Positions 27,120-61,147 of a DNA stretch of 64,000 bases are shown one piece after another. The notes below the pieces were generated by a model. The model saw nothing but the letters and a program-made list of their open reading frames with translations, was not told the origin of the DNA and searched no databases. The stretch comes from Chitinophaga sp. 180180018-3 (lineage in GTDB: Bacteria; Bacteroidota; Bacteroidia; Chitinophagales; Chitinophagaceae): contig NZ_CP140772.1 in NCBI RefSeq assembly GCF_037893185.1, forward strand, positions 1,798,001 through 1,862,000. The letters are read 5' to 3'. Both the position numbers and the translations under genes were made by a program. Position 1 is the first letter of the stretch, and the number at the start of each line of letters is the position of its first letter.

Positions 27120-27143
27120 TGGCAGCGAGTGGAAGCATTTGGC
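27120..27143. promoter_or_regulatory. Phased TGGC-box site upstream of the recombinase unit
   Basis: TGGC at 27120, TGGA at 27130 and TGGC at 27140 lie at an exact 10-bp period. The site is 69-92 bp upstream of the minus-strand 52-residue gene, with GCCA on its coding strand. The same arrangement occurs at 47654, 55096 and 61114. Confidence 0.45.
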
Positions 27144-27206
27144 TATCCGGGACGCCTCATAGAGCTGTAAAATGCTGTTTGCTATAAAAAATATTATTAC
27201 ACATTA

Positions 27207-27233
27207 AATGTAACGACCGTTACATTACATTTG
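27207..27233 (+). promoter_or_regulatory. Operator and promoter of the ChrB-like gene
   Basis: AATGTAACG and CGTTACATT form a perfect 9-bp inverted repeat with a 2-bp centre (27207-27226). The -7 element TACATTTG (27226-27233, matching TAnnTTTG) overlaps its last base. The ATG is at 27238, so the transcript would start at or next to the start codon. A repressor bound to the palindrome would block the promoter. Confidence 0.6.
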
Positions 27234-27237
27234 TATC

Positions 27238-27783
27238 ATGATTAAGGTCAATGCCTGGTTGCTGTTAACGTACAAAGTACCGCCGGAACCATCAAAAAAC
27301 AGGATCGCTTTATGGCGCAAATTGAAAGCACTCGGTGCTGTATATCTGCAAAACAGTATTTGTCTCCTACCTAAAACAACGGAACATATCAGGCAATTGA
27401 AGTTGATAGAAAACGATATTGCCAGGATTAAGGGCGAAAGTGTTCTGTTAGAAACTGTTGGCTTAGATAAGACTCAGGAACAAAAAGTTGTCAGCCGGTT
27501 TAAGGCAGACAGAGACGAAGAATACAAGGAATTTTTAGGGAAATGCGCCGACTTTGATGCCGAAATTAAAAAAGAAACTAAAGCCAAGCATTTCACCTAC
27601 GCAGAACTTGAAGAAAACGATGTGGACTTAAAGAAACTGCAAACATGGTTTGACAAGATTAAGAAATTGGATTTCTATGGAGCGGCGCTTGCTGTAACAG
27701 CAGGCCATAAACTCATGGAATGCCAGGTTATATTGGATGAATATGCCCGGAAAGTATATAACGCGCATGAAGAAAATCAATAA
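27238..27783 (+). CDS. ChrB N-terminal-domain-like protein (putative regulator)
   Basis: This 181-residue protein starts with WLLLTYKVPPEPSKNRIALW, the typical opening of the ChrB N-terminal domain, followed by RKLKALGAVYLQNSICLLP. In ChrB this part is a PaaX/PadR-like regulatory domain that senses chromate. The larger C-terminal domain of full ChrB is missing, and instead a charged helical region follows. A palindromic operator directly in front suggests autoregulation. The stop codon overlaps the MFS transporter gene by 17 bp, so the pair works together. Chromate as the ligand is not shown; the partner is an MFS carrier rather than ChrA. Confidence 0.75.
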   Translation: MIKVNAWLLLTYKVPPEPSKNRIALWRKLKALGAVYLQNSICLLPKTTEHIRQLKLIENDIARIKGESVLLETVGLDKTQEQKVVSRFKADRDEEYKEFLGKCADFDAEIKKETKAKHFTYAELEENDVDLKKLQTWFDKIKKLDFYGAALAVTAGHKLMECQVILDEYARKVYNAHEENQ

Positions 27784-29590: not shown

Positions 29591-29971
29591 ATGAACATCA
29601 CAGGAAGACTGACAAGGGATGCGGAAGTACGCACAACGTCAAACGGCAAACAGGTAGTAAACTTTTCCGTAGCGGTAAACGACAGCTACAAGAACAAACA
29701 GGGCGAGCGAGTGGAGCAAACCGCCTTCTTCGACTGCTCATACTGGATAACCCCGAACGTGGTGAAGATGCTCACCAAAGGGCTACTGGTGGAACTCACA
29801 GGCAGGGTAAGTACAAGGGCGTGGGTAAGCAAGGACGGAGAACCGAGAGCAGGACTAAACTTCCATACCTCCAACATCAAACCGCTTGCAGGAGGTAGAA
29901 GAAGCGAAACGCCACAGGCTACTACGGAACTGAACACAGGCAATACACAGGAAGACGACCTACCATTTTAA
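29591..29971 (+). CDS. ssb: Single-stranded DNA-binding protein
   Basis: The 126-residue product has an OB-fold (about residues 1-100; MNITGRLTRDAEVRTTSNGKQ, AFFDCSYW, LVELTGRVSTRAWV). It has a short linker and an acidic tail ending DDLPF, the site that binds other replication proteins. It protects single-stranded DNA during conjugative transfer or element replication. It is the first gene of the plus-strand accessory and PRTRC operon. Confidence 0.95.
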   Translation: MNITGRLTRDAEVRTTSNGKQVVNFSVAVNDSYKNKQGERVEQTAFFDCSYWITPNVVKMLTKGLLVELTGRVSTRAWVSKDGEPRAGLNFHTSNIKPLAGGRRSETPQATTELNTGNTQEDDLPF

Positions 29972-30015
29972 ACAGCAATCGATCATTTTTTTAACAATTC
30001 AAAATTTAAAACATC

Positions 30016-31089
30016 ATGGCACATAATCTCAATTTCAACAGCAGAACAGGTAAATACAGTTTCTTCAGCGTTCAGGAAAAAGCATGGCACGGCTTGGGGC
30101 AGATCGTACAGGACTATCCCACAAGTGAAGAAGCAATCCGATATGCAGGGCTTGATTACGAAGTCATCAAAAGTCCGCTGTTCACCAAAGGCTCAAACAT
30201 CATAGAAACTTCACAGGGTATCGAAGTAGGATACAGCGAACTGGACGTTCCCAACTACTTCGCCAACATCCGAAGCGACAACAATGCAGTATTAGGCGTT
30301 GTAGGCAAGGATTACCATATCGTGCAGAATCGCGAAGCGTTCAATTTCTTTGATGCCATTGTAGGCGGTGGGGACGGCATCCTGTATGAAACAGCAGGTG
30401 CATTGGGCAACGGTGAGCGCATATTTATTACGGCAAAACTGCCCGACTATATACGAGTTGGCAACGGTGATGATATTACAGAAAAATACATCTTCCTGAC
30501 AACCTCCCACGATGGAAGCGGAAGTATTACGGCAGCGTTTACGCCCATCCGTATCGTTTGCCAAAATACCCTTAACGCTTCGCTTCGCAACATGAGCAAC
30601 GTGGTACGTATTAAGCATACATCAGGCGCTAAACAACGCTTGGAGAATGCGCACAAGGTTATGGGACTGGCAAACACCCTCAGCAACCAATTACAGGACA
30701 TTTTCAACAACTGGACAAAAGTAAGGGTAACGGATAGCGAAGTAAAGAAACTGATACAGCTTGCACTTTGCCCCAACAAGGAAACCCTTGACCTGCTCAA
30801 AAAAGGTGCAGAGGAAGAAGTTTCCACTGTGTTCAAAAATACCGTTGATGATGCCTTTGCCTATGCAATGATAAGCGATACACAGCAGATGGAAACCACC
30901 AAAGGCACTTTGTTCGGAGCGTACAATGCCGTGACAGGCTACTATCAGAACGTAAGGAATTACAAAGACAGCGAAGCCAAATTACAGAGCATTGTATTGG
31001 GCGGTACTGCACAGTTAAAGACCCAAAAAGCCTTTGAACTGTGTACCTCATTCGAGAAAATCGGGGCAGACGCTTTTGAACTCAATTAA
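30016..31089 (+). CDS. DUF932 (phage/plasmid-like TIGR03299) protein
   Basis: This is a 357-residue protein with the typical DUF932 opening (AWHGLGQIVQDYPTSEEAI), the central GKDYHIVQNREAFNFFDAIV and a TPIRIVCQNTLNASLR box. The family is widespread on phages, plasmids and ICEs, where it lies near ssb and PRTRC genes. Its biochemical role is unknown, and no catalytic motif is evident. Spacing to ssb is 44 bp, and a GC-rich hairpin follows the stop codon. Confidence 0.9.
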   Translation: MAHNLNFNSRTGKYSFFSVQEKAWHGLGQIVQDYPTSEEAIRYAGLDYEVIKSPLFTKGSNIIETSQGIEVGYSELDVPNYFANIRSDNNAVLGVVGKDYHIVQNREAFNFFDAIVGGGDGILYETAGALGNGERIFITAKLPDYIRVGNGDDITEKYIFLTTSHDGSGSITAAFTPIRIVCQNTLNASLRNMSNVVRIKHTSGAKQRLENAHKVMGLANTLSNQLQDIFNNWTKVRVTDSEVKKLIQLALCPNKETLDLLKKGAEEEVSTVFKNTVDDAFAYAMISDTQQMETTKGTLFGAYNAVTGYYQNVRNYKDSEAKLQSIVLGGTAQLKTQKAFELCTSFEKIGADAFELN

Positions 31090-31098
31090 GTAACCACA

Positions 31099-31124
31099 GG
31101 CGACCGCCTGCAAAGGTGGTCGCC
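31099..31124 (+). terminator. GC-rich hairpin after the DUF932 gene
   Basis: GGCGACC (31099-31105) pairs with GGTCGCC (31118-31124). There is no proper T-tract, so this is a weak terminator or an mRNA-processing structure. Confidence 0.4.
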
Positions 31125-31142
31125 CTTAAAAAAATTACAGGA

Positions 31143-31322
31143 ATGATACTCGAAACCTTTATAGCAACCGTAAAACACGACAATGGCAAAATTCGATTTA
31201 GGGTTGTATCACTAAACGGAGAGCAAGGAGTAATCGAACAGATAACGGCAGCAGAAGGATGCCCCCCAAGCGCTATTGTTAAAATAAAAAAAGTTGATAA
31301 CGATATAAAAAGTGAGATATGA
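31143..31322 (+). CDS. Small hypothetical ICE protein (59 residues)
   Basis: The ATG at 31143 is preferred to a GTG at 31116, which lies in the hairpin. The product (MILETFIATVKHDNGKIRF at the start) looks like a compact beta-strand-rich protein and ends with a Lys/Asp-rich tail. The stop overlaps the next start (ATGA), suggesting coupled translation. I do not recognise a family. Confidence 0.6.
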   Translation: MILETFIATVKHDNGKIRFRVVSLNGEQGVIEQITAAEGCPPSAIVKIKKVDNDIKSEI

Positions 31323-31513
31323 AAGCAAAATCAATAGACGAAGCGAAAAGTTACGCAAAAGCACAAAGCCTGAATAAAGATAACAAAGATGTGGCTATAT
31401 ATATCATTCATTGTAACCGAACAGAATCTTTCTACGTAGATACCGATAGTTTAATACGACTGTGGGAGCAGCTAATCGGCTACTATATCAATGGGGTTTT
31501 TACTTCTGAATAA
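31319..31513 (+). CDS. Small hypothetical ICE protein (64 residues)
   Basis: The start is coupled to the previous gene by an ATGA overlap. The 64-residue product begins MKAKSIDEAKSYAKAQSLN and has a short hydrophobic strand (VAIYIIHC) followed by NRTESFYVDTDSLIRLWEQLIGYY. It is soluble, with no recognised domain. The position among accessory genes suggests an ICE maintenance or host-interaction role, which is speculative. Confidence 0.6.
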   Translation: MKAKSIDEAKSYAKAQSLNKDNKDVAIYIIHCNRTESFYVDTDSLIRLWEQLIGYYINGVFTSE

Positions 31514-31544
31514 TTACACTCCTAATATTAAAAATTCAAAGAAA

Positions 31545-32204
31545 ATGAAAACGATTAGTATAAAGCTATACACCTTTTCCGAACTGGAAAAGGAAGCACA
31601 GGACAAAGCAACGGAGCATTTTAGATTCTTTAACACCGATCATAACTGGTGGGAAAGCGAATGCGAGGATTTTATAACTATCTGCTCATTAATTGGCATC
31701 CGTATAAACCTGAAAGAGATTTATTTCAGAGGATTTTATTCGCAGGGAGACGGGAGTTGTTTCATTTCAAATATTGATGTATCAGCATTCATTAAAGGTA
31801 TAGCGGAACAGGCTTGGAAAAGTTATGCCCCCACACTGGAGCTGAACATACAGCCATGTACCATTGACAGGCGTGTAATAAAACTTATCGAAAACAGGAC
31901 AATAGAAATGCCAATGTGGACAGACAAACCCCACATGGGTTATTATGTAGCGTATTACTCTGAAAGTTATTTACATAAGGATAGCGGCAGGCAACACGCT
32001 TTAATTGAGGCTGAAATCGAAAAACTGGACGTGTGGGTATTGCGGACTTTAGAGCAGTTAAACAACTATCTATACAAGTGCCTTGAATGTACTTATGATT
32101 ATTTGATAAGCGATGAAGCCATACAAGAAACCATAGAAGCGAACGAGTATCATTTTACGCCAAACGGAGTGCATACTGACTGGCTTTGTAATTATGCCGA
32201 ATAA
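31545..32204 (+). CDS. Phage/ICE accessory protein, annotated in relatives as antitoxin-like
   Basis: The start at 31545 (MKTISIKLYTFSELEKEAQDKA) is chosen; the longer frame from 31491 overlaps the previous gene. The 219-residue product has the marked motif FRGFYSQGDGSCF, which is shared with phage and ICE proteins sometimes labelled as antitoxins of stability systems. A toxin partner is not obvious next to it, so that label is doubtful. It is rich in Trp, Tyr and Glu, and acidic overall. Confidence 0.65.
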   Translation: MKTISIKLYTFSELEKEAQDKATEHFRFFNTDHNWWESECEDFITICSLIGIRINLKEIYFRGFYSQGDGSCFISNIDVSAFIKGIAEQAWKSYAPTLELNIQPCTIDRRVIKLIENRTIEMPMWTDKPHMGYYVAYYSESYLHKDSGRQHALIEAEIEKLDVWVLRTLEQLNNYLYKCLECTYDYLISDEAIQETIEANEYHFTPNGVHTDWLCNYAE

Positions 32205-32217
32205 AAAATCAGCAACA

Positions 32218-32433
32218 ATGAAACTATCTATAACAGATTTAAATGGCCACCCGATTGAGGTCACAGACCTTGACAAAGCGATCAGGATAACAGCCGAATA
32301 CAAGGCATACAGGCACGAGGACAAAAGTTTTTCTGATTTCGACAACAGGCAATGCGCCTACTGGACAGATATACACGAGAAACTCATGTCATTAAAAAAA
32401 CAATTAATGAATAATAAAAACTTAAAGAAATGA
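32218..32433 (+). CDS. Small hypothetical ICE protein (71 residues)
   Basis: The ATG at 32218 (MKLSITDLNGHPIEVTDL) is preferred to an ATG at 32194 inside the upstream gene. The product ends in a Lys/Asn-rich tail, and its stop overlaps the PRTRC-E start by 4 bp. The central part (DFDNRQCAYWTDIHEKL) is distinctive, but I cannot name the family. It is probably co-translated with the PRTRC genes. Confidence 0.6.
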   Translation: MKLSITDLNGHPIEVTDLDKAIRITAEYKAYRHEDKSFSDFDNRQCAYWTDIHEKLMSLKKQLMNNKNLKK

Positions 32434-32957
32434 ACGCAAACTTTTTCAAGCAGATAACACAAATGAACATTACAGGTGATTTGCATCTGGTTATTTCAAA
32501 GGGTGCAGATAATACCCTTATTGTTACCACACAATTAAACAATGAGCATTGCGGAGACGATGCAAAGCACACCATAGTTCCACTCAATTTAAAGGGAACG
32601 GCAGAAGAACTGGACGAGGGATATTTTGAGCGGATAACCGCACCTATTGAAAAGGCTTCGGGATTAATGGTGAACATGGAAGCCTTTTTAAAGCAATTGG
32701 AGGAAGCGCAAAAGCAATCTGCTATGGAGAAGGAAAAAGCAGACAAAGAGCGCAGGGAAAAGGAAGCAAGGGACAAGAAGTACAAAGAAGCAATGACAAA
32801 AGCGGATGAACTGGAAAAAGAGGGCAAACACCGTGAAGCATGGATGAAAGTACCCGACCCAACCGAATACCCCGAAAACGCCGAGGCAATACGCAAACGT
32901 AAATCGCAATTGTCCGACAAGTTCGCATCACCGAGCCTATTCGGGCAAGCAGAGTAA
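32430..32957 (+). CDS. PRTRC system protein E
   Basis: The 175-residue product opens with NFFKQITQMNITGDLHLVIS, characteristic of PRTRC protein E. It continues with an APIEKASGLMVNMEAFLKQLE segment and a long charged coiled coil (about residues 90-140, rich in Glu and Lys). PRTRC clusters (ParB-related, ThiF-related cassette) are found on plasmids and ICEs; their function is unknown. The gene is coupled to the preceding small gene by overlap and lies upstream of protein C. Confidence 0.85.
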   Translation: MNANFFKQITQMNITGDLHLVISKGADNTLIVTTQLNNEHCGDDAKHTIVPLNLKGTAEELDEGYFERITAPIEKASGLMVNMEAFLKQLEEAQKQSAMEKEKADKERREKEARDKKYKEAMTKADELEKEGKHREAWMKVPDPTEYPENAEAIRKRKSQLSDKFASPSLFGQAE

Positions 32958-32989
32958 AACAAATTGTTCAACGCCAAAAATCAGCAATC

Positions 32990-33208
32990 ATGTTATTAGC
33001 AACACAGTTAGAACGCATATTCCTGTTTGAAGACAAAGGGCAGGAAATCAGGTTGACAGACCCCGAACCCCAATGGAGCGTACAGGCAGTATTGAATTTC
33101 TATTCCAATACCTACCCGATACTCACCACTGCAAAAATATCCGCACCTGCTATCAGGGAAGATACGGTGCAGTACCGTTTTGAGAGCGTAATGGGAACAA
33201 AAGGTTAA
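32990..33208 (+). CDS. PRTRC system protein C
   Basis: This is a 72-residue protein with the hallmark of PRTRC C: a start resembling (L/V)ERIFLFEDKGQEIRLTDP, then a YSNTYPILTTA segment. Length and order (E, C, then the F-position gene, B and ThiF) agree with PRTRC cassettes. The function in the cassette is unknown. It resembles a small ubiquitin-like beta-grasp candidate in size, and the cassette contains an E1/ThiF-like enzyme; this connection is inference only. Confidence 0.85.
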   Translation: MLLATQLERIFLFEDKGQEIRLTDPEPQWSVQAVLNFYSNTYPILTTAKISAPAIREDTVQYRFESVMGTKG

Positions 33209-33227
33209 TCTAAAAAATAGTAAAACG

Positions 33228-34382
33228 ATGACTTATGCAACAACATATCATATCGGGTACGATATGCCTACCCAAAGAGCCAAAGCAAAAACGGTTGCAC
33301 CGCCAGTTGAGCGAGTTCGCAAACTGGATGATCCGTCCAAAGTATGCAGCAGAGATACAAAAGGACAAGCGACAGTCCGTACCAATAACCATGTTGCCAA
33401 TGGTTTTCTAAAATGTTCCTTCCTGCCAAAGCTGAAAGAAACGGAAACCGTACAGGCTTGTGGGAAATCTGCAAAAACGGAGAGGGATTTTTATAAGTCC
33501 CTTTCCCAACTTGCCGAGCATTACGCCATACAGCCCATGCAAACGCAGTCTTATGGCTATCCGTACAATATCGCATTGGCATTATGGGACACGCAGGAAC
33601 GGTTGGGAAGAAACGTAAGGGATTGGGAAGAAATTAAACTCCTACAGGATAGCAGGAAAACATATTTGACGAGCGAGGAACGATACAATACAGGTGCTAC
33701 ATTGTTCTATATTCCCGTAGTGCCTTTGTACCGAATGCTCAAAAACCCAAAAAGGAAATATACCGCACAGCTTTTGTTATCGGTATGTACTTACCTGTAC
33801 CACATAGCGGACATACCGTATTACAGGCAGGAAAACAGCTTCCTGTACTGGCAGTACGAGATGTTGAAGGAATGGGTAGTAAGTGATGAATATACGGACG
33901 AAACGAGCATCTACCTAAGTGAGTTAGAACAGGCTGAATGGATTGGAGACCGCATGGAACAGAAAATTTTCCACCTTGCCAACCTTACATTTTTCGGGCA
34001 ACGTCTTGCAAGGCTTAAAACCGCAGATGCCTTAGACCTCGATTGCCTGAAACTTGCCCAGGAAGCGTTTGAACTATATCAACGATACCCTAATGAAAAA
34101 GTATTTCGCAATGCCCGACCCAATGGCGAAGCCGAAGAAGACGACATGGAAAACGTCATTCCAATGGATAAGTACGTTTCATTTTGTGCCGATGGAAAAG
34201 GCTGGTTAAACGAAAACCTCGAACAATGTGTAAATACGGATTTACAGGAATACGGGCAAATGGAGGAACCTATTATTATTAAGCGCTTTGACGGAAACGA
34301 CATAGCGGGCAACAATCTCGATTTTGAAAACCGCTTGTTCATCTTAATGGAGGAACTGGCATACCTACTAAGCAACATTTAA
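33228..34382 (+). CDS. PRTRC-cluster protein in the F position
   Basis: This 384-residue protein lies between PRTRC C and PRTRC B, where Bacteroidota clusters carry a large F-like protein. It is mostly alpha-helical (ALALWDTQERLGRNVRDWEEI, YRMLKNPKRKYTAQLLLSV). It contains no motif I can assign to an enzyme. The N-terminal 70 residues are basic and probably disordered; the C-terminal 100 are acidic. The assignment is based mainly on gene order. Confidence 0.6.
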   Translation: MTYATTYHIGYDMPTQRAKAKTVAPPVERVRKLDDPSKVCSRDTKGQATVRTNNHVANGFLKCSFLPKLKETETVQACGKSAKTERDFYKSLSQLAEHYAIQPMQTQSYGYPYNIALALWDTQERLGRNVRDWEEIKLLQDSRKTYLTSEERYNTGATLFYIPVVPLYRMLKNPKRKYTAQLLLSVCTYLYHIADIPYYRQENSFLYWQYEMLKEWVVSDEYTDETSIYLSELEQAEWIGDRMEQKIFHLANLTFFGQRLARLKTADALDLDCLKLAQEAFELYQRYPNEKVFRNARPNGEAEEDDMENVIPMDKYVSFCADGKGWLNENLEQCVNTDLQEYGQMEEPIIIKRFDGNDIAGNNLDFENRLFILMEELAYLLSNI

Positions 34383-34393
34383 AAAAAGAAACG

Positions 34394-35107
34394 ATGAACG
34401 ATATAACAGGAAACTTCGGAACGCTGTACCACCCCAAAACTGCTTTGGTATTCTATCAAACGAAAGGAACCAACACAGATACTTATGTGGAATACTTCGA
34501 CATGGACAGCAATGGTACACCCATCAATGCCCATCCATTGACGGTAAGGGAAGCAAACCAACTGGCAAAAGCATTGAAGACGGCAAAGGAAGAAAAAGAA
34601 CCCTGCCTGAAAGTTAACGGCATTTTGGGTAACCACATTTTACACCTTGACCCGCAGAAAGGCATGGCGATATGGTTTACCAAAACCATGAAAAGGGAAC
34701 TATACTTTACCGAAAAGTTGGGCATTCCCAAAGGAACCGCCCATGTACCGCCGATGCTGTGGGTGGCAGGCAGAAACAGCCTGTATGTTTTTGCATTGGC
34801 ATCCAACCGCAGACCCACCACACGTACAACGCTTTATAATGCGCCATTTTTTAACGTGTACGAGGAAGGAAATGTATGTATGGGGACGGTGGATGTGCGT
34901 ATTAAGAAAACCGCATCACTGGAGGAATTTATCACCGCGTGGGAAGGCTACTTTTTTAATTCCTATTTCAGCCATCTGATGCAGGACTACAATCCGATTA
35001 ACGGCAATTGTGTAAGCCTTTGGGAGCATCTTATCGCAACTGGAGATGTATTTCCCAAAGAGGTACTGAAAAAGAGTAACATAACCTTAAACGATTTTTT
35101 ACAATGA
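34394..35107 (+). CDS. PRTRC system protein B
   Basis: The 237-residue product contains LGNHILHLDPQKGMAIWFTK style residues and a PPMLWVAGRNSLYVFAL box, both typical of PRTRC B. It also has the NVYEEGNVCMGTVDV stretch and a C-terminal FFNSYFSHL region. The stop overlaps the ThiF-family start by 4 bp (ATGA), so the two should be made together. Its role is unknown; it is always found with the ThiF-like member in this cassette type. Confidence 0.88.
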   Translation: MNDITGNFGTLYHPKTALVFYQTKGTNTDTYVEYFDMDSNGTPINAHPLTVREANQLAKALKTAKEEKEPCLKVNGILGNHILHLDPQKGMAIWFTKTMKRELYFTEKLGIPKGTAHVPPMLWVAGRNSLYVFALASNRRPTTRTTLYNAPFFNVYEEGNVCMGTVDVRIKKTASLEEFITAWEGYFFNSYFSHLMQDYNPINGNCVSLWEHLIATGDVFPKEVLKKSNITLNDFLQ

Positions 35108-35910
35108 ATACAGATAAAATAAAAGTCCATTTTACGGACAGCGATTTAATAGACGCCACCAATCCTGTAACGGTAAACCTGATCGGTGCAGGTGGTACAG
35201 GCTCGAAAGTTCTTACAGGCTTGTTGGAAATGAATCATAGCCTTATAGCTTTGGGACATGCAGGTTTGCACGTTCGGTTATGGGACGATGATATTGTAAC
35301 GGAAGCAAATTTGGGACGACAGCGTTTTTCGGAATGTGAAAAAGGACTGTATAAATCGGTAGCCCTGATAAATAGGGCAAACCGTTGCGAGGGTACAAAC
35401 TGGAAAGCAGAAAATCGAAAATTTGAAAGAGACAGTTTAGGTAGGTTGCCCGAACATGCAGAGGCGAATATTTTTATTACCTGCGTTGATAGCGTAGCAG
35501 CAAGATTTGAAATAGCCGATATATTGAAAAAAATGAACAGCGGCAGGTATTATACAAACCGTCCAAGCTATTGGCTTGACTTTGGTAATACCCTTTATAC
35601 TGGACAGGTCATACTATCCACTATCAGGGAGATACGGCAACCCAAGTCCGAGCGATATGAAACAGCAGCCGTCATGCCTTTTGTTACCGAAGAATTTGGC
35701 GACCTATTGAAGCAAGCCGAAGAGCAGGACGACACGCCAAGCTGTTCGTTGGCGGAAGCATTGGAAAAGCAGGATTTGTACATAAACGGCTCGCTTGCTC
35801 AAATGGGATGTTCCTTGTTATGGAACCTGTTCCGTAAAGGTCTAACACCATACAGGGGATTTTTTCATAATATCGGGGAGTTCCGCACACAGCCCATTCC
35901 CATAGCCTGA
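35104..35910 (+). CDS. PRTRC system ThiF-family protein
   Basis: This is a 268-residue E1-like protein. A Rossmann nucleotide-binding loop VNLIGAGGTGSKV lies at about residues 24-36, followed by the adenylation-type motifs LWDDDIVTEANLGRQRF and ITCVDSVAARFEI. ThiF/E1 enzymes adenylate the C-terminus of ubiquitin-like or sulphur-carrier proteins. A CPxC-type zinc site is not apparent. It is the last gene of the plus-strand operon and is followed by two strong hairpins. Confidence 0.9.
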   Translation: MNTDKIKVHFTDSDLIDATNPVTVNLIGAGGTGSKVLTGLLEMNHSLIALGHAGLHVRLWDDDIVTEANLGRQRFSECEKGLYKSVALINRANRCEGTNWKAENRKFERDSLGRLPEHAEANIFITCVDSVAARFEIADILKKMNSGRYYTNRPSYWLDFGNTLYTGQVILSTIREIRQPKSERYETAAVMPFVTEEFGDLLKQAEEQDDTPSCSLAEALEKQDLYINGSLAQMGCSLLWNLFRKGLTPYRGFFHNIGEFRTQPIPIA

Positions 35911-36223: not shown

Positions 36224-36673
36224 CTATGATTGTAATCGAGGTTTAAAATATTCCTTTGCTACTTCGCATATACCAGCACTGAAATAACGTCCCCCATCGC
36301 AGATAACACGGATTGCCTTTGCCAGTTCCTGGGGATCTGCGCCTTTCAGGATATATCCATCGGCCCCATTGCGAAGCATTTGCACCACATCATTCTCATC
36401 ATCGTTTACGCTGAACGCCAAGAATTTCAGTAATGGATATTTTGCCCGTAGTGATTTGACCGTCTCAAATCCATCCATAACCGGCATATTGACATCAACA
36501 ATACACAGATCGGGGAGCATTTCACAGGCTTCCATTTTTATCAATGCCAACTGGCCGTTTTCGGCTTCAAACACAGTTTCAAGACCATGATCTTTGAGAA
36601 ACTGGCAGATACTCTCCCTGAGTAGATCGTGGTCATCTATAATAGCTATTTTTATTATTTTTTGTTCGCTCAT
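36224..36673 (-). CDS. Stand-alone receiver-domain response regulator
   Basis: The 149-residue product is a CheY-like receiver. It has the acidic pair in AIIDDHDL, the phosphoacceptor Asp in CIVDVNMPVMDGFE (about residue 60), Ser in FLAFSVND at the Thr/Ser position, and Lys in YILKGADPQ. The N-terminal region resembles NarL/FixJ regulators, but there is no output helix-turn-helix: the protein stops 25 residues after the receiver. No histidine kinase is seen in the window. It may act by protein contact, or be a truncated regulator. Confidence 0.88.
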   Translation of the reverse strand: MSEQKIIKIAIIDDHDLLRESICQFLKDHGLETVFEAENGQLALIKMEACEMLPDLCIVDVNMPVMDGFETVKSLRAKYPLLKFLAFSVNDDENDVVQMLRNGADGYILKGADPQELAKAIRVICDGGRYFSAGICEVAKEYFKPRLQS

Positions 36674-47248: not shown

Positions 47249-47554
47249 TTAAAGGAAGAATGAACGAAGGATGGTAGCAGCCACAATAAGGAAGATGCAC
47301 GCACCGAACCAGCTTGCCGCAGTCTTGCTCGTGTCGGGATCGCCACTGCTGAATTTGTTGTACACCTTAACACCTCCGATTAACCCAACGACGGCTCCAA
47401 TGGCATAAATTAATTTGGTAGCCGGGTCAAAATAAGAGGTCACCATTTGTGTGGCCTCGTTGATGCCCGCACCTCCATTTCCTTGAGCGAATACACCAAA
47501 TGCTGACAGCAATGCAGCGCCTGTCAGCCACACTTTTTTTCTTTGCTTTTCCAT
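47249..47554 (-). CDS. traE: Conjugative transfer protein TraE (DUF4134, VirB2-like pilin)
   Basis: The 101-residue product has a signal peptide (to about FAQG) and two membrane segments (about residues 46-68 and 80-100, the latter ending ILRSFFL). This is the standard DUF4134 layout, equivalent to the VirB2 pilin. Its own leader is about 150 bp long and includes a CCCGC / GCGGG hairpin (47586-47600). It is separated from the upstream genes by a terminator, so it should have its own promoter. Confidence 0.93.
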   Translation of the reverse strand: MEKQRKKVWLTGAALLSAFGVFAQGNGGAGINEATQMVTSYFDPATKLIYAIGAVVGLIGGVKVYNKFSSGDPDTSKTAASWFGACIFLIVAATILRSFFL

Positions 47555-47653
47555 GTTTGAACTGAATTATTTTGTTACTACTTTCCCGCTTCATGCGGGC
47601 TTCGGAACAAAAATGTCATGGAAATTGAAGCGCTCTAACGATGTGTCTTTCAG

Positions 47654-47677
47654 TGGAATTACTTGGCAGTAGGTGGC
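47654..47677. promoter_or_regulatory. Phased TGGC-box site upstream of traE
   Basis: TGGA at 47654, TGGC at 47664 and TGGC at 47674 lie at an exact 10-bp period, 100-123 bp upstream of traE. The coding strand of traE reads TCCA/GCCA, as at the other sites. Confidence 0.45.
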
Positions 47678-49411: not shown

Positions 49412-49437
49412 TTTTTCATTTTTTAATACATCAGTTG

Positions 49438-50556
49438 CTACATCTTGCGCCCGCGTTTTCGGGATTTGTCAACCGTATGATCCGGTTTTTCCTTTTTCGA
49501 CTCCTTTTGCAGCTTATCCAGATTCTCTTTGATCCTTTCAGGTACATAAATATGTTCCCAGGTTTCAGTAACGGCTTTAAAGTTCATCCGTAATCCCGGT
49601 TCTTTCATTTCATCGATCAGGTCAAAGCCATGCTTTTTGTTCCACCCAACAGGGTCAAGTATGGCTTCGTTCGGGAAGGAGACAACCATTAGGTCTTTGG
49701 GAATTTGCGTGATCGTTTCGTAATCTATGTCCCGGAACTCATGTGCTTTCGGGTGGTATGGAATAAAGTAGCGTTGCGTATCATGATCATAGAATTTCTC
49801 GATTTCGGAGAACACGATGCCTTTGGAACTAAAATCATCTTTTGGGCGCAGCATATCCATCTGTAGATCCACATAAAAGGTATGCCCTTCAATATCCAGT
49901 GTAGGCAACACGCCCTTATTCCAGCGCAGGTCCAGCAGGCTGCCCGGCTCTATGGTCAGCTCAAAGTCGATCTTGCCTTTTACCTCCTCCAAACTCAGGT
50001 TATATTTTTGGGCCACACCAATGGGGTCAATGCTGGTCAACTCAGGTATTTGCACCATTTGCAGATCGGTTGAATCTGTAAAGGCCAGTTCCCTTCTTCT
50101 TTCATTGGTAGGAAAATTTTTGGTACTTACATCATAATGAAAAGTATATCCGTTTCCGTTACCAACATATTGCATTTCCTTTACGCGCATCACATTTTGC
50201 GGGTTGGCTTTTTCCCGCAATTCATCTTTGAGCCCGTCAACGATAAATTCCGTTCCTTCAATGAACATCGTTGGTTTTTCCCGCTCTGTTTTTGCCGCTT
50301 CTTTTTGCTGGCGCACTTCAACCACCCAATCAATATAGCCTTTTGCGTCTTCCATATTATGAGGAAACGATTTCCTGCGCCCGGACAGCTTGGAATCATC
50401 AAGACCAACTATAAACCCGTATTCGGGAAAGTCTTCTGTACGATAAACAATAATGAGGTTATTGATGTTCTTTTCAGCAACATTGTTCCTGTGGCTGGCG
50501 ATGGTATGTCCTTTATATTCCTCGAATATATAGTCGGGATCATTTTTTGAAACCAT
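49438..50556 (-). CDS. Unrecognised repeat-family protein 2 (two units plus N-terminal extension, 372 residues)
   Basis: This is a paralogue of the neighbours. An N-terminal part of about 95 residues, unique to this member (FEEYKGHTIASHRNNVAEKN, then DWVVEVRQQKEAAK), is followed by two repeat units. The first has FIEGTEFIVD and SIDPIGVAQKYNL; the second has LDIEGHTFYVDLQMDMLRP and LDPVGWNKKHGF. The C-terminal tail is basic (HTVDKSRKRGRKM). No signal peptide or enzyme motif is seen. It is in one transcript with the two paralogues, and spacing to its neighbours is 26 and 28 bp. The function is unknown. Confidence 0.8.
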   Translation of the reverse strand: MVSKNDPDYIFEEYKGHTIASHRNNVAEKNINNLIIVYRTEDFPEYGFIVGLDDSKLSGRRKSFPHNMEDAKGYIDWVVEVRQQKEAAKTEREKPTMFIEGTEFIVDGLKDELREKANPQNVMRVKEMQYVGNGNGYTFHYDVSTKNFPTNERRRELAFTDSTDLQMVQIPELTSIDPIGVAQKYNLSLEEVKGKIDFELTIEPGSLLDLRWNKGVLPTLDIEGHTFYVDLQMDMLRPKDDFSSKGIVFSEIEKFYDHDTQRYFIPYHPKAHEFRDIDYETITQIPKDLMVVSFPNEAILDPVGWNKKHGFDLIDEMKEPGLRMNFKAVTETWEHIYVPERIKENLDKLQKESKKEKPDHTVDKSRKRGRKM

Positions 50557-50584
50557 GTTCGTGTGTTTTAATTTAATTGAATGA

Positions 50585-52270
50585 CTACCTGCTGCGCCCG
50601 CGTTTCTTTACCTTATGAACGTTATGCGCAGGGATGCTTTTCTTGGATACAGAAATAATGGGTGATTTTTGATCCGGCTTAACCCGCTGGCTATTGTTCC
50701 TTTTGACGGTCTCCGCAAAGCGGGTCTGATCCCACGGAATAATATTCGATTGAAAATGTAACTGCGGCCCTTTCTGTTTAAGGCCGGCCACTACATTAAA
50801 TCCGTATCTCCGGTTCGCCCAAATGGGGTCCAGCCAATCTTCATGAGGTATCTGGACAACGATTACATCTTTCGGGATTTCTTTGCTGCTCAGACTTACT
50901 TCCTGGAACGTATGTGTTTTTTGATTATAGGGAATGGTATATGTTTCGTTTTTCGGCGAGTAGTAATATTCAAGTTCAGAGAAGATGATACCGCGTGACC
51001 ATATATCATCTTTGGGACGGAGCCTGTCCCTTGCAAGGTCAACATAAAAAGTATGGCCCGCAATATCAATAGTAGGCAACATCTGTTGTTGTTCCAGCTT
51101 ATTAATGACAGTCTGATCTACCATCAGATCAAAATCGGACATATTCTGTATTTCACTTTCCGGTACGCCATGCTTTTTTGCCATACCAGCCGGGTCAAGC
51201 TCTACGAAGTCAGGTATCTGGACAACGGTATAATCCCATTGATCTATTCCGGGCAAGCCTTTACTTTTTCGGCTGTAAGGGAACTCATATCCTGAACCGG
51301 GAAGCTCCCGCATGTCCAAAAAGGAAATAACATTTTGCCGGTTGGCTTTCTCCCGCAGCTCCAAACGGTTCACATCCACGATAAATTCCGTCCCATGTAT
51401 GTTGAGTATTGGAAGTGCCCTTGCCGTATCGGTGGGTAGCCTAAAAGGGATATCCGTACGCATATCATTGACTTCATATTCTTCTTTTGGTCTTAATTGC
51501 TCGGCGGTATTCCGCTTTATGTGCATCGGCACATCGGTTTCCTCCCAGGGCAGGATGCGGGCTTCATGATGCATCTGGAAAGACTCCAGGCTTTTGAAGT
51601 TGGGGAGACTGAAACCGTATTTTTTTGCCCAGCCCGGTTCATCCATTTCGGCAGCATGGGGAAACCGTACCATAATAAAATCTTTCGGGAGTTCAGTCAG
51701 GGCGGAAGTATTGTGCTGCTGAAACTCTCGTGTAGCAGGATTATAAGGTATTACATACGCTTGCCGTTCGTCATCATAATATTGCTGTATTTGGTCAAAG
51801 CCTATGCCTTTGGATCTGAAGTCATCCTTTGGGCGGAGTTTATACATTTGCAGGTCTACATAAAAGGTATGCCCCGCAATATCCAGCGTGGGCAGGATGC
51901 CTTTATTTAACCGTAAGTCGAGCGGGCTGCCCGGCGCAATCATCAGATCGAGATCGGACTTTCCGATCACCTCTTTCAATGGCCGCCTATACTTCTCCGC
52001 CATACCTAATGGGTCAATGCGGGTCAGTTCGGGTATTTCCACCCTCGGAAAGTCATCTATATAACTAAGATCAACGATCTTACTTTCGTCAACAATATTT
52101 TTTGTACCCAAATCATAATAGAAGAAATAGCCATTGTTATTTCCTGTGTACCGCATATCAGTTATGGGCATTACATTTTGCGGATTATTCTTTTCCCTTA
52201 GTTCTTCTCTGAGAACATCTATAATAAACTCCGTTCCTTCAATTTGGATACTTGGCAATGTTCTTTCCAT
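50585..52270 (-). CDS. Unrecognised repeat-family protein 3 (four units, 561 residues)
   Basis: This four-unit paralogue has units opening at about residues 4, 127, 284 and 398. Units 1 and 3 follow one subtype (EGTEFI(I/V)DV, ELREK); units 2 and 4 follow another (AGHTFYVDL, LRPKDD). The pattern therefore reads A-B-A-B, where A and B themselves share the (I)DI.G..F.VD...LR.K core. The C-terminal tail is long, basic and probably flexible, ending HKVKKRGRSR. It starts 38 bp after traD with no terminator between, so it belongs to the traA-traD transcript. No known domain was recognised. Confidence 0.8.
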   Translation of the reverse strand: MERTLPSIQIEGTEFIIDVLREELREKNNPQNVMPITDMRYTGNNNGYFFYYDLGTKNIVDESKIVDLSYIDDFPRVEIPELTRIDPLGMAEKYRRPLKEVIGKSDLDLMIAPGSPLDLRLNKGILPTLDIAGHTFYVDLQMYKLRPKDDFRSKGIGFDQIQQYYDDERQAYVIPYNPATREFQQHNTSALTELPKDFIMVRFPHAAEMDEPGWAKKYGFSLPNFKSLESFQMHHEARILPWEETDVPMHIKRNTAEQLRPKEEYEVNDMRTDIPFRLPTDTARALPILNIHGTEFIVDVNRLELREKANRQNVISFLDMRELPGSGYEFPYSRKSKGLPGIDQWDYTVVQIPDFVELDPAGMAKKHGVPESEIQNMSDFDLMVDQTVINKLEQQQMLPTIDIAGHTFYVDLARDRLRPKDDIWSRGIIFSELEYYYSPKNETYTIPYNQKTHTFQEVSLSSKEIPKDVIVVQIPHEDWLDPIWANRRYGFNVVAGLKQKGPQLHFQSNIIPWDQTRFAETVKRNNSQRVKPDQKSPIISVSKKSIPAHNVHKVKKRGRSR

Positions 52271-52308: not shown

Positions 52309-52941
52309 TCAGACAAACTCCCCAATGTCAAAGTCACTCAGATCATTTTTCCGCAAATCGGAAGAACCGGAATCCATTCCTGTCGGCAGGCTCCTGTCCA
52401 ATAATACTGCAATCTTTCGGGAAGCGCCTTCCATTGAGTTTTCCAAAAGGCTGAATAGTTCGGTTCCCTGTATCCTTTGAACTATATCCACCGCTTTTTG
52501 CTGCAAGGCCGGTTCCAGCACTTCTTGCTGTAACAAGGCCCCCACGGTACTCAGTTCGTCGAAGGTAACCCCTGTGGCAAAACCGTCATCGCCGTTCGGA
52601 TAACCATATCCATTCCATTCTTCTTCCTCTTCTTCAAGGTTGGGGCCGTCCCCAAAAACTTCATCCAGCTCTTCCTGCGGAATTTCCCTTGCGAAACCCT
52701 TTTCACTGGTTTCTGTTTCAAAATTATCAGCCGTAACCTTCGGTTTAGCTAAATGGCGTTGGGTGGCATTACTTGGCACTGCTTGTCGTACAGGCGGCTT
52801 TGGCTGGCCCATTATTTCCGGTAAATCAGGATTTACAGGAGGCTGTTGCCGATTGTTCCGCTCCACTTTTTTAATGGTAATTTTGTCCTTCGCCAGCAGA
52901 ACAATGACGATGAGCAGGCATATTAAAATCAGCAGTTCCAT
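52309..52941 (-). CDS. traD: Conjugative transfer protein TraD (DUF4122)
   Basis: The 210-residue product has an N-terminal membrane anchor (about residues 2-16, LLILICLLIVIVLL), then a proline-rich and acidic linker. The conserved C-terminal domain contains GVTFDELSTVGALLQQEVLEP and RIQGTELFSLLENSMEGASR. This fits the DUF4122/TraD family of Bacteroidota ICEs. It probably acts at the cytoplasmic face of the inner membrane; the exact role is unknown. It lies between the DUF3408 genes and the three repeat-family genes. Confidence 0.85.
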   Translation of the reverse strand: MELLILICLLIVIVLLAKDKITIKKVERNNRQQPPVNPDLPEIMGQPKPPVRQAVPSNATQRHLAKPKVTADNFETETSEKGFAREIPQEELDEVFGDGPNLEEEEEEWNGYGYPNGDDGFATGVTFDELSTVGALLQQEVLEPALQQKAVDIVQRIQGTELFSLLENSMEGASRKIAVLLDRSLPTGMDSGSSDLRKNDLSDFDIGEFV

Positions 52942-54716: not shown

Positions 54717-55095
54717 TTTTCTAAAATTTAAAATTGTCCATTTGATAAATTGTGCAGTTGTACTGCCGCTTTTCTGCTTTACCATTTTTCCGGGTTGCTG
54801 TACCGTTGTGTTTTTTTACAGTTTCCCTGTTATATGCTTTTGCTTAAATCTGAAAACCCGTAAAGGTTTGTTTCTGTAAACATTGCTGCTTTTACGTTTT
54901 TATGGTTTTAAAACTTTATACTTTTACACCCCTGCATTTTTAAACCTGTGTTCTTTTCCTGTTTTCTGTATGTGCTTGAAACAGCACATACATTTTGTTT
55001 TTTTCTTTTCCGCACTTTTTTCTGTAAGTGCTCCTGTACAACTTTGAAACAAAGAAAATACCTCGGGCAGCTATATTTTAGAATGTGGTAGTCAT
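54717..55095. other. Long leader region of the tra operon
   Basis: On the minus strand this is a purine-rich leader with no gene. A perfect 10-bp hairpin TGTATGTGCT / AGCACATACA (54967-54992, 6-nt loop) is present, followed by a T-rich tract on the plus strand. It could regulate the traA transcript or end stray plus-strand transcription. Confidence 0.5.
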
Positions 55096-55119
55096 TGGCG
55101 TTCAGTGGCAGTCTTTGGC
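55096..55119. promoter_or_regulatory. Phased TGGC-box site between traA and mobA
   Basis: TGGC at 55096, 55106 and 55116, an exact 10-bp period, lie 380-403 bp upstream of traA. A 13-mer GTGGAGCACTGTA follows at 55123, shared with position 36946. Orientation relative to traA is the same as at the other sites. Confidence 0.5.
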
Positions 55120-55280: not shown

Positions 55281-55400
55281 TCTGTTCACCCGAACAGAGC
55301 AAGTTGTGTTTTGAGGCACTCGGAACCTGTTCCGTGCCTCAAAACAACTTGCCCTTGCAGGGGGCCGGAAAACACCCTCCGAAGTCGGGGTTTTTGTTGG
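55281..55400. other. Candidate origin of transfer (oriT) in front of mobA-mobB
   Basis: A 7-bp hairpin TCTGTTC / GAACAGA (55281-55298) is followed by a very long inverted repeat: left arm 55299-55326, right arm 55329-55352, ending GTTCCG-TGCCTCAAAAC-AACTTGC, with only two unpaired bases. A GC-rich segment with GGGGGCCGG and ACCC / GGGT pairing follows. It lies directly upstream of the relaxase operon. The nick site is not identified. Confidence 0.6.
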
Positions 55401-55449
55401 ATTACTGAACGATCAGCTCGCTGACGCTCGTTTTAAAAATTATATAGTT

Positions 55450-57203: not shown

Positions 57204-57267
57204 CAACTTAGGAGCAGAAAATTGTTTTGAACAGACCTGCCATTGCCAATTACAGGCAAACAATAGC

Positions 57268-57615: not shown

Positions 57616-57627
57616 AGCTGTTTTTTG

Positions 57628-57670
57628 GTATCATCCGTTATAGTGGTTACAAAGTTATACCATTTGATAC
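57628..57670. promoter_or_regulatory. Divergent promoter region with dyad, HxlR operator candidate
   Basis: GTATCA (57628-57633) and TGATAC (57665-57670) form an inverted repeat. On the minus strand TAACTTTG (57650-57657) matches the Bacteroidota -7 element for the HxlR gene. The whole segment lies between the divergent genes. Confidence 0.45.
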
Positions 57671-57699
57671 GTAATTTTACCTGTTTAAAGTAAAATTAG

Positions 57700-58636: not shown

Positions 58637-58640
58637 CGGG

Positions 58641-59681
58641 ATGAAACTTTCAATATTGGACATATCGTATGTACCCTATGGCGGCAACCGTAGGACAGCA
58701 TTGCAAAACACCATCGAGACCGCACAAGTTGCAGAAGATTTGGGATATGAACGTATATGGTTTGCGGAGCATCATAACATCGGTCACATAGCCGGACGCA
58801 CGCCGGAGGTCATGACTGCTGCGGCAGCAGCCAATACAAAGCGTATTCACGTAGGTTCGGGAGCCGTTTTATTGAACCATTACAGCCCCTATAAAGTGGC
58901 GGAGGTCTTTGCTACTTTATGCGAGCTTTATCCTGGACGAATTGATTTAGGAATCGGCCGTGCTACCACGGGACAGTATTCCGACTTTGCTTTGCAGAGC
59001 AACCGTACATCATTGCAAAAAGCGGATAACTCAATGGAACAGTTGGTGGAGTTACTGGCCTGGCTCACGAATGATTTCCCTTCCAACCACCCATTCAGCC
59101 AGGTAAAACTAAACAATGATGGTAGTTTACCGAATGTCTACCTGCTGGGCACAAGCGATTGGAGCGCTGAGGCGGCAGCCCGTTTGGGTTTGGCCTATGT
59201 CTTTGCCGCATTTATAACATCAGACCAGCAAAGAACTTTTGACATTACCCGCCATTACATTGAAAATTTCCAGCCGTCGAATAAGCCCTATGGAAGAAAA
59301 GCACCGGGTTTGACGCTGACAGTATATGTGTATGCCCACGAAAATGACGAATTAGCATTGGAACTTGCCGCGCCCTCATTGTATTCTATGCAATTGCTTA
59401 ACGCGGGAAGAAGGGAAGCCGTCAACCAATCCTTTATTCCTGAAAAGGAAGCATTGGAATTGCTTAATGGCTCTTATACGTTGGAACGCCTTACTAATCC
59501 CAACAAACCCCCAAGGCACTTCATCGGCAAAGCTGAAACCGTTGCCAGAGAATTAAAACAAATGCAGGCAGCATTCGGCTTGGAAGAAATAATGATACAG
59601 CTTATTTCAGGCAACCATCTGGGCAGGTTAAAGTCATTTGAATTATTATCACAGGCAATAGAAAAGGAAAAAATGTCTTAA
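58641..59681 (+). CDS. LLM-class flavin-dependent oxidoreductase (MsnO8-like)
   Basis: The start at 58641 (MKLSILDISYVPYGG) is chosen, 4 bp after the preceding gene. The 346-residue product is a luciferase-like TIM barrel, with RIWFAEHHNIGHIAGRTPEV, VGSGAVLLNHYSPYKVAE and YPGRIDLGIGRATTGQ as family blocks. Such enzymes use reduced flavin. The substrate is unknown; MsnO8-like members occur in cargo of many elements. It is part of the HxlR-associated oxidoreductase block. Confidence 0.9.
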   Translation: MKLSILDISYVPYGGNRRTALQNTIETAQVAEDLGYERIWFAEHHNIGHIAGRTPEVMTAAAAANTKRIHVGSGAVLLNHYSPYKVAEVFATLCELYPGRIDLGIGRATTGQYSDFALQSNRTSLQKADNSMEQLVELLAWLTNDFPSNHPFSQVKLNNDGSLPNVYLLGTSDWSAEAAARLGLAYVFAAFITSDQQRTFDITRHYIENFQPSNKPYGRKAPGLTLTVYVYAHENDELALELAAPSLYSMQLLNAGRREAVNQSFIPEKEALELLNGSYTLERLTNPNKPPRHFIGKAETVARELKQMQAAFGLEEIMIQLISGNHLGRLKSFELLSQAIEKEKMS

Positions 59682-59705
59682 AGCAAACAACTAAATTTTT
59701 ACAAA

Positions 59706-60509
59706 ATGAATAATCAGAAAACTATCTTCATCACAGGTGCGTCAACAGGTTTAGGGAAAGCCACGGCCAAACTGTTCCAGCAAAAAGGCTGGAATGTCAT
59801 TGCCACCATGCGCAACCCTGAAAAGGAAACTGAACTTTCGCAGTTGGAAAACGTAAGCCTCTTGCAGCTCGATATTGCAGATCCCGAACAGATCAAAACA
59901 GTTGCCCAACAGGCAATTGAACTGCATGATATTGATGTGGTGTTTAATAATGCAGGTTACGGGTTGTCCGGCGCTCTGGAAGCGCTTTCGGATGAACAAA
60001 TCGTACGCCAGATCGATACGAATCTTTTAGGTACTATTCGTGTTACCCAAGCCTTTATTCCCTATTTCAGAAACAGGAATAACGGCCTTTTCCTGAATAC
60101 GACTGCAATCGGCGCTTTCGTTGCATTTCCGTTCGTTTCCACGTATCATGCCACCAAATGGGCATTGGAAGGATGGAGCGAAAGCCTCTCGTATGAGCTG
60201 GGACTGTTCAACATCGGTGTAAAAACGATTGTTCCAGGTGGTATCAGGTCAGATTTTGGCAGGTCTATGGAGATAGTTCCGCACCCTGTTTATGATGAAG
60301 CAGCAAAGAAAGTTCATGCATTGGCACACCCGGATGCATACGCTACACCGGAACAGATTGCGGAGGTGGTTTATGAGGCAGCAACCGACAAGAAAGATCA
60401 GTTGCGCTATTTTGCAGGGGAAGATGCCTTTTCACTCTACAACAGACGATTGGAAATTGGCACGGAAGCGTTCAGGAAAGAAATCAGGAAAATGATTTTT
60501 GGCAAGTAG
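59706..60509 (+). CDS. SDR-family oxidoreductase with altered catalytic site
   Basis: The 267-residue product has a classical SDR fold with the cofactor motif TGASTGLGKAT (residues 10-20), NNAGYG (81-86) and the active-site Tyr147 and Lys151 in YHATK. The residue 13 before the Tyr, normally the catalytic Ser, is Ala134 (in NTTAIGA, where relatives have N.SS.GG). It may still bind NADP and might use a neighbouring Thr. It is the last gene of the oxidoreductase block and is followed by a 700-bp intergenic region. Confidence 0.88.
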   Translation: MNNQKTIFITGASTGLGKATAKLFQQKGWNVIATMRNPEKETELSQLENVSLLQLDIADPEQIKTVAQQAIELHDIDVVFNNAGYGLSGALEALSDEQIVRQIDTNLLGTIRVTQAFIPYFRNRNNGLFLNTTAIGAFVAFPFVSTYHATKWALEGWSESLSYELGLFNIGVKTIVPGGIRSDFGRSMEIVPHPVYDEAAKKVHALAHPDAYATPEQIAEVVYEAATDKKDQLRYFAGEDAFSLYNRRLEIGTEAFRKEIRKMIFGK

Positions 60510-61113
60510 TCAATTTATCCAATGTTACTTTGCTATTGGATGAAATTAGAAAATATTCCGGACAGCCGGTGTTGTCACCGATTTTAGGTGTCACTGCGGC
60601 ATAGGTAGTTCAGGCTACGGGATATGAGCGAGGAGCTGTTGGCCTGTGAAGGGAAGCTCGCTCACCCGCGCCTGGATAAAGCGCGTGCCCGCATTACATA
60701 ATAGCCCACTTACCAATTAAGGTAATATCCGGATGATTCGCATTTTTAAACCGGATGCGGGAAATGTGGCTTAGGGCTTTTGATATTTGCCTGCTTACAC
60801 GGGAGCGGAACTGTAAAAGTTATTTTTTGAGAAAAACCGGAATTGAAAACGCGTAAGCGCTTTCGGTATAACTCGCCATAAACTGCACCAGTTTTGTTAA
60901 GGAGCCAATTTTGGCTCCTTAATTATTTTACAGCAAAAAAAACACATAGACACTTATTGCTATGGGCTTGCTTAGCAAATTGTTTGGAAACGGGAAACGT
61001 CGAATGTAAGATCAATCTGATTCTATTGAAGGATTTAAAACTGCTCCGATTACCTGCCATTTAATTGATGCGCATGTCAGCTCCAGCAGTATCTAATAAA
61101 TGATTCTATACAC
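60510..61113. other. Intergenic region between cargo block and mobC
   Basis: No gene is supported. A terminator-like hairpin AAGGAGCCAA / TTGGCTCCTT (60899-60920) with a following AT-rich tail probably ends the cargo transcript. A 15-codon frame at 60962 (MGLLSKLFGNGKRRM), followed in the same frame by a further open stretch after its stop, may be a gene remnant. Confidence 0.5.
60899..60930 (+). terminator. Terminator after the cargo block
   Basis: The perfect 10-bp stem AAGGAGCCAA / TTGGCTCCTT with a TT centre is followed by AATTATTTT. It lies 390 bp after the SDR gene. Confidence 0.75.
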
Positions 61114-61147
61114 GCCAAATACTGCCACTAAAAGCCATCTGCCGCCA
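61114..61147. promoter_or_regulatory. Phased TGGC-box site upstream of mobC, four boxes
   Basis: GCCA at 61114, 61124, 61134 and 61144 (TGGC on the minus strand) lie at an exact 10-bp period, 63-96 bp upstream of mobC. This is the best copy. The orientation relative to the gene is the same as at 27120, 47654 and 55096. Confidence 0.55.

Follow-up and report, generated by a model that had tools for sequence, protein, structure and literature searches.

The 64,000-bp window analyzed here (C1:1798001–1862000 of the genome of Chitinophaga sp. 180180018-3, a single contig of 8.13 Mb) covers part of an integrative and conjugative element (ICE) in which direct repeats of a four-letter box, exactly 10 bp apart, precede several transcription units. 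The observation is real and larger than first noted, and a single transfer regulon of the ICE is supported. The array reads as the activator site of this regulon, and we consider it probable, at roughly two chances in three, that the ladder of boxes is a head-to-tail binding site for multiple copies of an ICE-encoded, 102-residue HTH_17 excisionase-like protein (Xis), which would recruit RNA polymerase. In what follows, the element of the window is called ICE A, a second one in the same genome ICE B, and one in genome G040 ICE C.

A scan of the window for TGGM-N6-TGGM-N6-TGGM returned six matches at five sites, whereas 100 dinucleotide shuffles gave 0.08 on average and never more than 2. The original prediction had described four of these sites, and re-reading of the sequence found the boxes where it had placed them, at exact 10-bp intervals, with the coding strand of the downstream unit reading GCCA or TCCA at all four and with four perfect boxes at 61114–61147. 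It had missed a fifth three-box site (52754–52777), which lies inside the traD open reading frame (ORF; 52309–52941, minus strand). The arrays are given below as four boxes, together with their genes and with promoters that are predicted from matches to the six defined letters of the Bacteroidetes −7 element, TAnnTTTG (as given in passages of PMC7366714).

25427–26896: serine recombinase, with recombinase domains.
26893–27051, minus strand: 52-residue ORF, first gene downstream of the recombinase array, preceding the serine recombinase.
27084–27091, minus strand: predicted −7 element TAATTTAA of the recombinase unit, 4 of 6 letters, located 62 bp beyond the start of box 1.
27120–27153, minus strand: four-box array before the serine-recombinase unit (GTCC, GCCA, TCCA, GCCA; on the plus strand, TGGC/TGGA boxes at 27120–27143).
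47249–47554: traE (DUF4134).
47608–47615, minus strand: predicted −7 element CATTTTTG of traE, 5 of 6 letters.
47644–47677, minus strand: four-box array before traE (GCCA, GCCA, TCCA, GACA).
52719–52726, minus strand: predicted −7 element TAATTTTG inside traD, 6 of 6 letters.
52754–52787, minus strand: four-box array inside the traD ORF (GACA, GCCA, GCCA, GCCA).
55050–55057, minus strand: predicted −7 element TTTCTTTG of traA, 5 of 6 letters.
55086–55119, minus strand: four-box array in the mob–traA intergenic region (GCCA, GCCA, GCCA, ACCA).
61114–61147, plus strand: four perfect GCCA boxes before the coupling gene.
61176–61183, plus strand: predicted −7 element TAAATTCA of the coupling gene, 4 of 6 letters.
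61210–63207: coupling gene, MobC family (NCBIfam Bacteroid_MobC).

To judge conservation, we used the best 80 of at least 581 relatives of the coupling protein, whose loci belong, by record title, to Chitinophagaceae, Sphingobacterium, Pedobacter, Flavobacterium, Chryseobacterium, Zunongwangia, and others. The counts for each gene are unselected, covering every locus in which the gene was located and 200 or more bases could be inspected. A strict three-box array of (G/T)CCA preceded the coupling gene in 53 of the 80 loci, box 1 lying 81–97 bp ahead of the start codon; many of the remaining loci differed by one altered letter, with the register unchanged. When up to one of the 12 letters could change, the array was present before the coupling gene in 77/80 loci, traA in 64/73, traE in 9/29, DUF1896 in 4/12, and orf3 in 0/7, and inside traD in 54/66. 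At this cut the opposite strand, periods of 9 and 11, and the control word ACCG all gave zero for these six genes; the opposite-strand matches at MobC_2 (64/75) are the traA array viewed from the other side. No array was found, again with one letter changed, before the relaxase (0/76), TraG (0/23), topoisomerase (0/15), or RteC genes (0/18 and 0/17). Allowing two changed letters raised the counts to 73/73 for traA, 27/29 for traE, 6/12 for DUF1896, and 1/7 for orf3, and the controls began to appear (ACCG in 14/80 coupling and 1/73 traA loci, period 11 in 2/80 coupling and 3/66 traD loci, the opposite strand in 1/29 traE loci).

The period is equally sharp. Over 1,687,365 bases, GCCA occurred three times in a row at period 10 in 163 cases and at all other periods from 6 to 24 together in one; among seven control words at period 10, TGCC, which overlaps a true box, was seen 10 times, AGCC twice, and the others never. 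On the strength of the shuffles and of these period and word controls, we rejected chance as the origin of the arrays. Homologous ICEs keep the array at the same promoters, which lends good support to the earlier proposal of a single regulon whose orientation is conserved; the AraC-type regulator proposed alongside did not hold up (see below).

Elsewhere in the genome such sites are rare: a loose pattern matched 21 times over the 8.13 Mb, versus 5 times for the control pattern read backwards. TGGC filled all three boxes in 10 of the 21, 8 of them in ICEs A and B (five in A, namely window sites and C1:1897422; three in B, at C1:3368978, 3368988, and 3373110) and 2 elsewhere (C1:3621819 and C1:7645890). 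Abundant sites at random genome positions, or their absence from homologous ICEs, would have spoken against the original prediction; on both counts the outcome was the opposite. A stricter three-box pattern, run over 198 genomes of the class, matched in 7; the matches in G000 and G040 fall within these ICEs, and those in the other five genomes (G007, G034, G041, G148, and G158) look like chance matches. ICE A carries two further arrays beyond the window:

C1:1897412–1897445 (C1:1897422): array before the DUF1896–methylase/helicase genes.
C1:1904456–1904489: array before orf3–topoisomerase, overlapping the 3′ end of xis.

The arrays also stand at a fixed distance from a −7-like element. With the four boxes numbered to start at 1, 11, 21, and 31, this element starts at position 63 (62 in traD), 61–62 bp beyond the point where box 1 begins, and this offset was the commonest within each promoter group. 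For the geometry we used 78/80 coupling, 73/73 traA, 28/29 traE, and 66/66 traD loci, having dropped those with more than 5 of 16 box letters changed; as loci that repeat one sequence are not independent, distinct sequences were counted, here and for the traD codons. T67, T68, T69, and G70 were kept in 52, 52, 52, and 53 of 56 traA sequences and each in 24/24 traE promoters. TAnnTTTG was found within one of its six letters at position 63 in 24/24 traE, 36/56 traA, and 11/61 coupling sequences, the coupling promoters mostly reading TAAATTCA there, and at position 62 in 55/56 traD sequences. ICEs A, B, and C together contain 19 sites at seven kinds of operon, 14 of which match five or six of the −7 letters at 62/63; four (three coupling promoters and the recombinase) match 4/6, and the DUF1896 site of ICE A reaches 5/6 only in the register one box further on. 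In a distant ICE (L138, from G139), inspection of the mob–traA region by eye showed GTCA/GCCA/GCAA/GCCA boxes one turn further upstream, with TTTATTTG still in register.

The usual spacing between the −33 and −7 elements sets the interval in which a −33 TTTG should begin. At starts 38–44, TTTG was found in 0 of 197 distinct sequences (61 coupling, 56 traA, 24 traE, and 56 traD). Of the two features of a sigma-ABfr-type promoter, then, the −7 element TAnnTTTG is present at a fixed offset in traA, traE, and traD and the −33 TTTG is absent, which fits an activator-dependent promoter.

The array inside traD allows the boxes to be compared with the coding sequence around them. Altogether, 48 traD orthologs (from 46 of the 80 loci, the window, and ICE B) hold a strict array at nearly the same position in the gene. 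In 53 of 58 distinct sequences, those sharing the same offset, conservation at the third codon positions within boxes 2–4 was 1.0, 0.98, 0.98, and 0.68, compared with 0.64 on average, and 0.94 at most, over 45 third positions outside the boxes. Synonymous positions are thus kept within the boxes, which points to selection on the DNA, and we rejected coding constraint as the cause of this array. In ICE A, the predicted promoter inside traD precedes three genes without a Pfam match, located between traD and traE (47774–52270), which it would drive. By eye, these three large genes share IEGTEF-like repeats; the length of the traD–traE gap differs in ICEs B and C.

Combining boxes and spacing, we formulated a rule of four G[C/A]CA boxes with at most three changes plus a −7 element of five or six letters at the fixed offset. 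Over nine ICE regions (586 kb) from five families of the class, it gave 27 matches, all at traA, traD or its place between traB and traE, traE, DUF1896, or orf3; two of the nine regions (G139 C1 at 235–275 kb, and G107) gave none. Controls yielded 0 matches in 139,305 bases of seven loci of array-less ICEs, and none of 10 block shuffles gave more than one. Applied to the 80 loci (1,623,365 bases), the rule returned 175 matches. Of these, 160 fell at promoters that carried a label, and the remaining 15 included several resembling DUF1896, traE, or traD sites that our script had left unlabelled. The rule also matched once in the short loci from unrelated genomes, at one of the five probable chance sites of the stricter three-box scan (L115, from G158); this match, too, looks fortuitous, as it lies within an ORF of 709 residues that by eye resembles a translation GTPase, so the rule is not free of false matches. 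The box word itself drifts, being mostly GACA in G032 C19 and in the first 60 kb of G139 C1 and mixed in G032 C3, while period and gap are kept.

The best candidate for the protein that reads the boxes is encoded at the right end of ICE A, beyond the window:

C1:1900826–1905987: excision-type block with rteC, xis, orf3 (DUF4099/DUF3945), and topoisomerase III.
C1:1904478–1904786: xis, a 102-residue HTH_17 gene (PF12728, E 1.3e-9).
C1:1905142–1905987: rteC (PF09357, E 6.8e-76).

For the Xis protein, HTH_17 was the only domain above the Pfam cut-off, corresponding to a single MerR-like winged-helix domain with no effector domain; topB (topoisomerase III, Exc-like), downstream in the block, also scored above cut-off. 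An HTH_17 profile found some match in 46 of the 198 class genomes. Matches of at least 130 bits occurred at 9 places (two each in G000, G032, and G139, one each in G040, G065, and G107), all on contigs with these tra genes, and the next scored at most 117 bits. Seven of these 9 orthologs reside in ICEs that carry arrays by the four-box plus −7 rule; conversely, five array-less ICEs (three in G000, two in G040) have the coupling gene and no Xis ortholog at 130 bits or above. Neither xis nor rteC has an array of its own. The closest solved relatives of Xis, by both sequence profile and Foldseek, were BldC (the best PDB match) and excisionases. Arg60 of Xis (R60), invariant in 22/22 sequences, aligns with Arg30 of BldC, which reads a C–G pair; here chain residue 33 is equated with Arg30 by assuming a three-residue tag, deduced from 71 versus 68 residues. 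For covariation between the box word (GCCA/GACA) and Xis residues, GACA-type ICEs were few and mixed boxes occurred.

These data suggest a mechanism in which each box would take one winged-helix monomer, and the four monomers would line up on a single side of the helix in the way that BldC occupies its direct repeats. This row of proteins would reach to just upstream of the missing −33 element, whose role it might assume. The product of the adjacent upstream gene, RteC, would initially turn on xis, and Xis in its turn would activate the promoters of the tra, coupling, topoisomerase, methylase–helicase and, in ICE A, recombinase units, whereby excision and transfer would start together.

The block resembles the RteC–Xis2c/Xis2d–Exc system of the Bacteroides element CTnDOT, in which rteC, small HTH_17 gene(s), an orf3-like gene, and topoisomerase III also form one block. 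The genes of ICE A stand in the order of the CTnDOT excision operon, and xis would correspond to Xis2d by its place; the likeness is one of gene families and gene order. ICE A has the RteC gene, the HTH_17 gene at the Xis2d place, and the topoisomerase III gene of such an operon and lacks an HTH_17 gene at the Xis2c place. ICE B has two HTH_17 genes in its excision operon, whereas one was found in A, C, and the ICE of G065; in A and C no second one was seen between rteC2 and xis, and a tblastn search that used the ICE B protein as query (E 1e-5) likewise found none. A Xis2c-like protein was accordingly discarded as the reader of the boxes, none having been found in A, C, and G065, which all bear arrays. 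According to passages of PMC9956884, the CTnDOT excisionases activate transfer genes, and a title cited there has Xis2d binding between mob and tra. CTnDOT differs in possessing Xis2c, and the passages on it that we examined contain neither a 10-bp ladder nor a fixed −7 distance nor a set of six or seven promoters; ICE A, for its part, has serine recombinases near its left end.

BldC of Streptomyces is likewise a small winged-helix domain that binds head-to-tail to direct repeats of variable number, but it is a developmental regulator not carried on an ICE. RdfS of ICEMlSymR7A is reported to act at sites without a consensus motif, in contrast to the strict word and period here. Phage lambda Xis and Pukovnik Xis act at attachment sites, and neither is known to have a promoter ladder. 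A literature search for a description of the ladder found none, novelty standing against that search only, which was made without two papers on CTnDOT regulation.

Several points weigh against Xis as the activator. Concerning the promoters, only 11/61 coupling and 36/56 traA sequences come within one letter of TAnnTTTG, traA has a T where this element has A, and the coupling and recombinase elements match just 4/6 letters; TTTG starts at 36, immediately outside the −33 interval, in 9 of the 197 sequences; and none of the 7 orf3 loci passes at one mismatch, although 5 pass the four-box plus −7 scan. Concerning the orthologs, two ICEs whose Xis is more distant (G139 C1:268238, and G107) had no array under the threshold applied, and the 130-bit cut was chosen after the gap in the score list had been seen. 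As for structure, an ortholog with 93% identity was modelled, at moderate confidence (mean pLDDT 77 and pTM 0.50 for the best of five models; 47–58 for the other four), none of the Foldseek matches was as good as E 0.001, BmrR (6.8) and SoxR (6.6), which are MerR-type regulators with another mode of binding, scored similarly, and the BldC repeats, AATTXXXX(C), are 9 bp long rather than 10.

The main rival is that RteC, not Xis, reads the boxes, which it would recognize in direct orientation ahead of the transfer genes and in inverted orientation ahead of the excision genes. We deem this unlikely. In its favor, rteC lies directly upstream of xis in ICE A, RteC was found in all seven array-bearing ICEs examined, and the xis promoters of ICEs A, B, and C contain TGGC-N6-TGGC plus an inverted GCCA 19 bp before CAATTTTG, so that RteC rather than Xis may read this word, a further point against Xis.

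C1:1904787–1905141: xis promoter region of ICE A, beyond the window, with inverted TGGC/GCCA boxes (also L119; L127/L132).

In CTnDOT, RteC binds an inverted repeat at the excision operon. Passages of PMC10865816 state that it activates that operon. The distribution of RteC is harder to reconcile with this alternative. In G000, an RteC (33–35% identity) occurs near two of the three array-less ICEs, its gene 28–41 kb away; RteC is present in 25 of the 198 genomes, so its presence alone does not predict arrays, and its genes are not preceded by any (0/18 and 0/17). In L036, L042, and L100, moreover, the xis promoter lacks the GCCA half while a strict array is kept at the coupling gene (L036) or traA (all three). 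By eye, the regions upstream of rteC and xis show CCA..TGG palindromes, possibly RteC sites.

A host-coded or other unnamed ICE regulator, such as a response regulator, appears improbable as the ligand of the ladder. Direct repeats do suit some response regulators, as a passage in the discussion of the BldC paper has it, and the window encodes a receiver-only one (36224–36673) adjoining the PRTRC and tra genes. This protein has no DNA-binding domain in Pfam, however, its tblastn relatives occur in 2 of the 80 loci, and ICE B offers only a 34% match; and a host factor would need to be widely shared, the scanned ICE regions spanning five families. Still harder to credit is the AraC-type protein at 63235, which the original prediction had favored: the gene does encode an AraC helix-turn-helix domain and directly follows the coupling gene, but it is not conserved with the arrays, having a tblastn relative in 1 of the 80 loci (25% identity) and none in ICEs B and C, both with a full set of arrays. 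A second AraC gene of ICE A (C1:1890279) was also set aside: ICE C has a relative at 69%, ICE B has none, and one of the 80 loci contains a relative. That the arrays are partition, oriT, or recombination sites rather than promoter elements is scarcely conceivable, for although one lies in the mob–traA intergenic region, where an origin of transfer could be located, and another precedes the recombinase, they keep a fixed spacing to the −7-like element and an orientation toward the gene at several unrelated operons and recur before orf3–topoisomerase, traE, and DUF1896.

On a bolder reading, which we regard as evenly poised, the ladder and its fixed −7 gap would serve many Bacteroidota ICEs, as a large class, in common as the switch for transfer. 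An excisionase filament would replace the −33 contact and fire the traA, traE, coupling, topoisomerase, and methylase–helicase operons together, along with the hidden traD promoter, the word drifting from GCCA to GACA and the period and gap staying constant. Excisionases that double as conjugation activators are known in a few ICEs, and RdfS lacks a readable site. In the present case a simple textual rule, with four boxes at 10-bp steps and a −7 element 61–62 bp beyond the beginning of the first, predicts the promoters of transfer genes in elements that lack annotation and would make regulons, their order, and hidden promoters readable from sequence across Bacteroidota. The ladder also offers a direct test of a one-turn filament activating a promoter without a −33 element.

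Some other features of these ICEs were recorded. Near the serine recombinases there is a weak half-array at 25207–25240 of the window, and 23144–26896 holds a pair of large, related serine recombinases separated by a short recombinase-like ORF (24783–25199). A PRTRC-type cluster at 29591–35910 encodes SSB, DUF932, PRTRC protein E, ubiquitin-like, E2-like, and ThiF proteins. In the ICE cargo of L102 (521–12960), outside the window, two P-type-ATPase-like ORFs and an RND-pump-like ORF with partners, judged from sequence, suggest a metal-efflux load. Finally, an ORF6N-type gene of ICE A beyond the window (C1:1898303–1900826) appears to be split in two by an ORF of 493 residues, probably an insertion; its homologs in ICEs B and C are whole.

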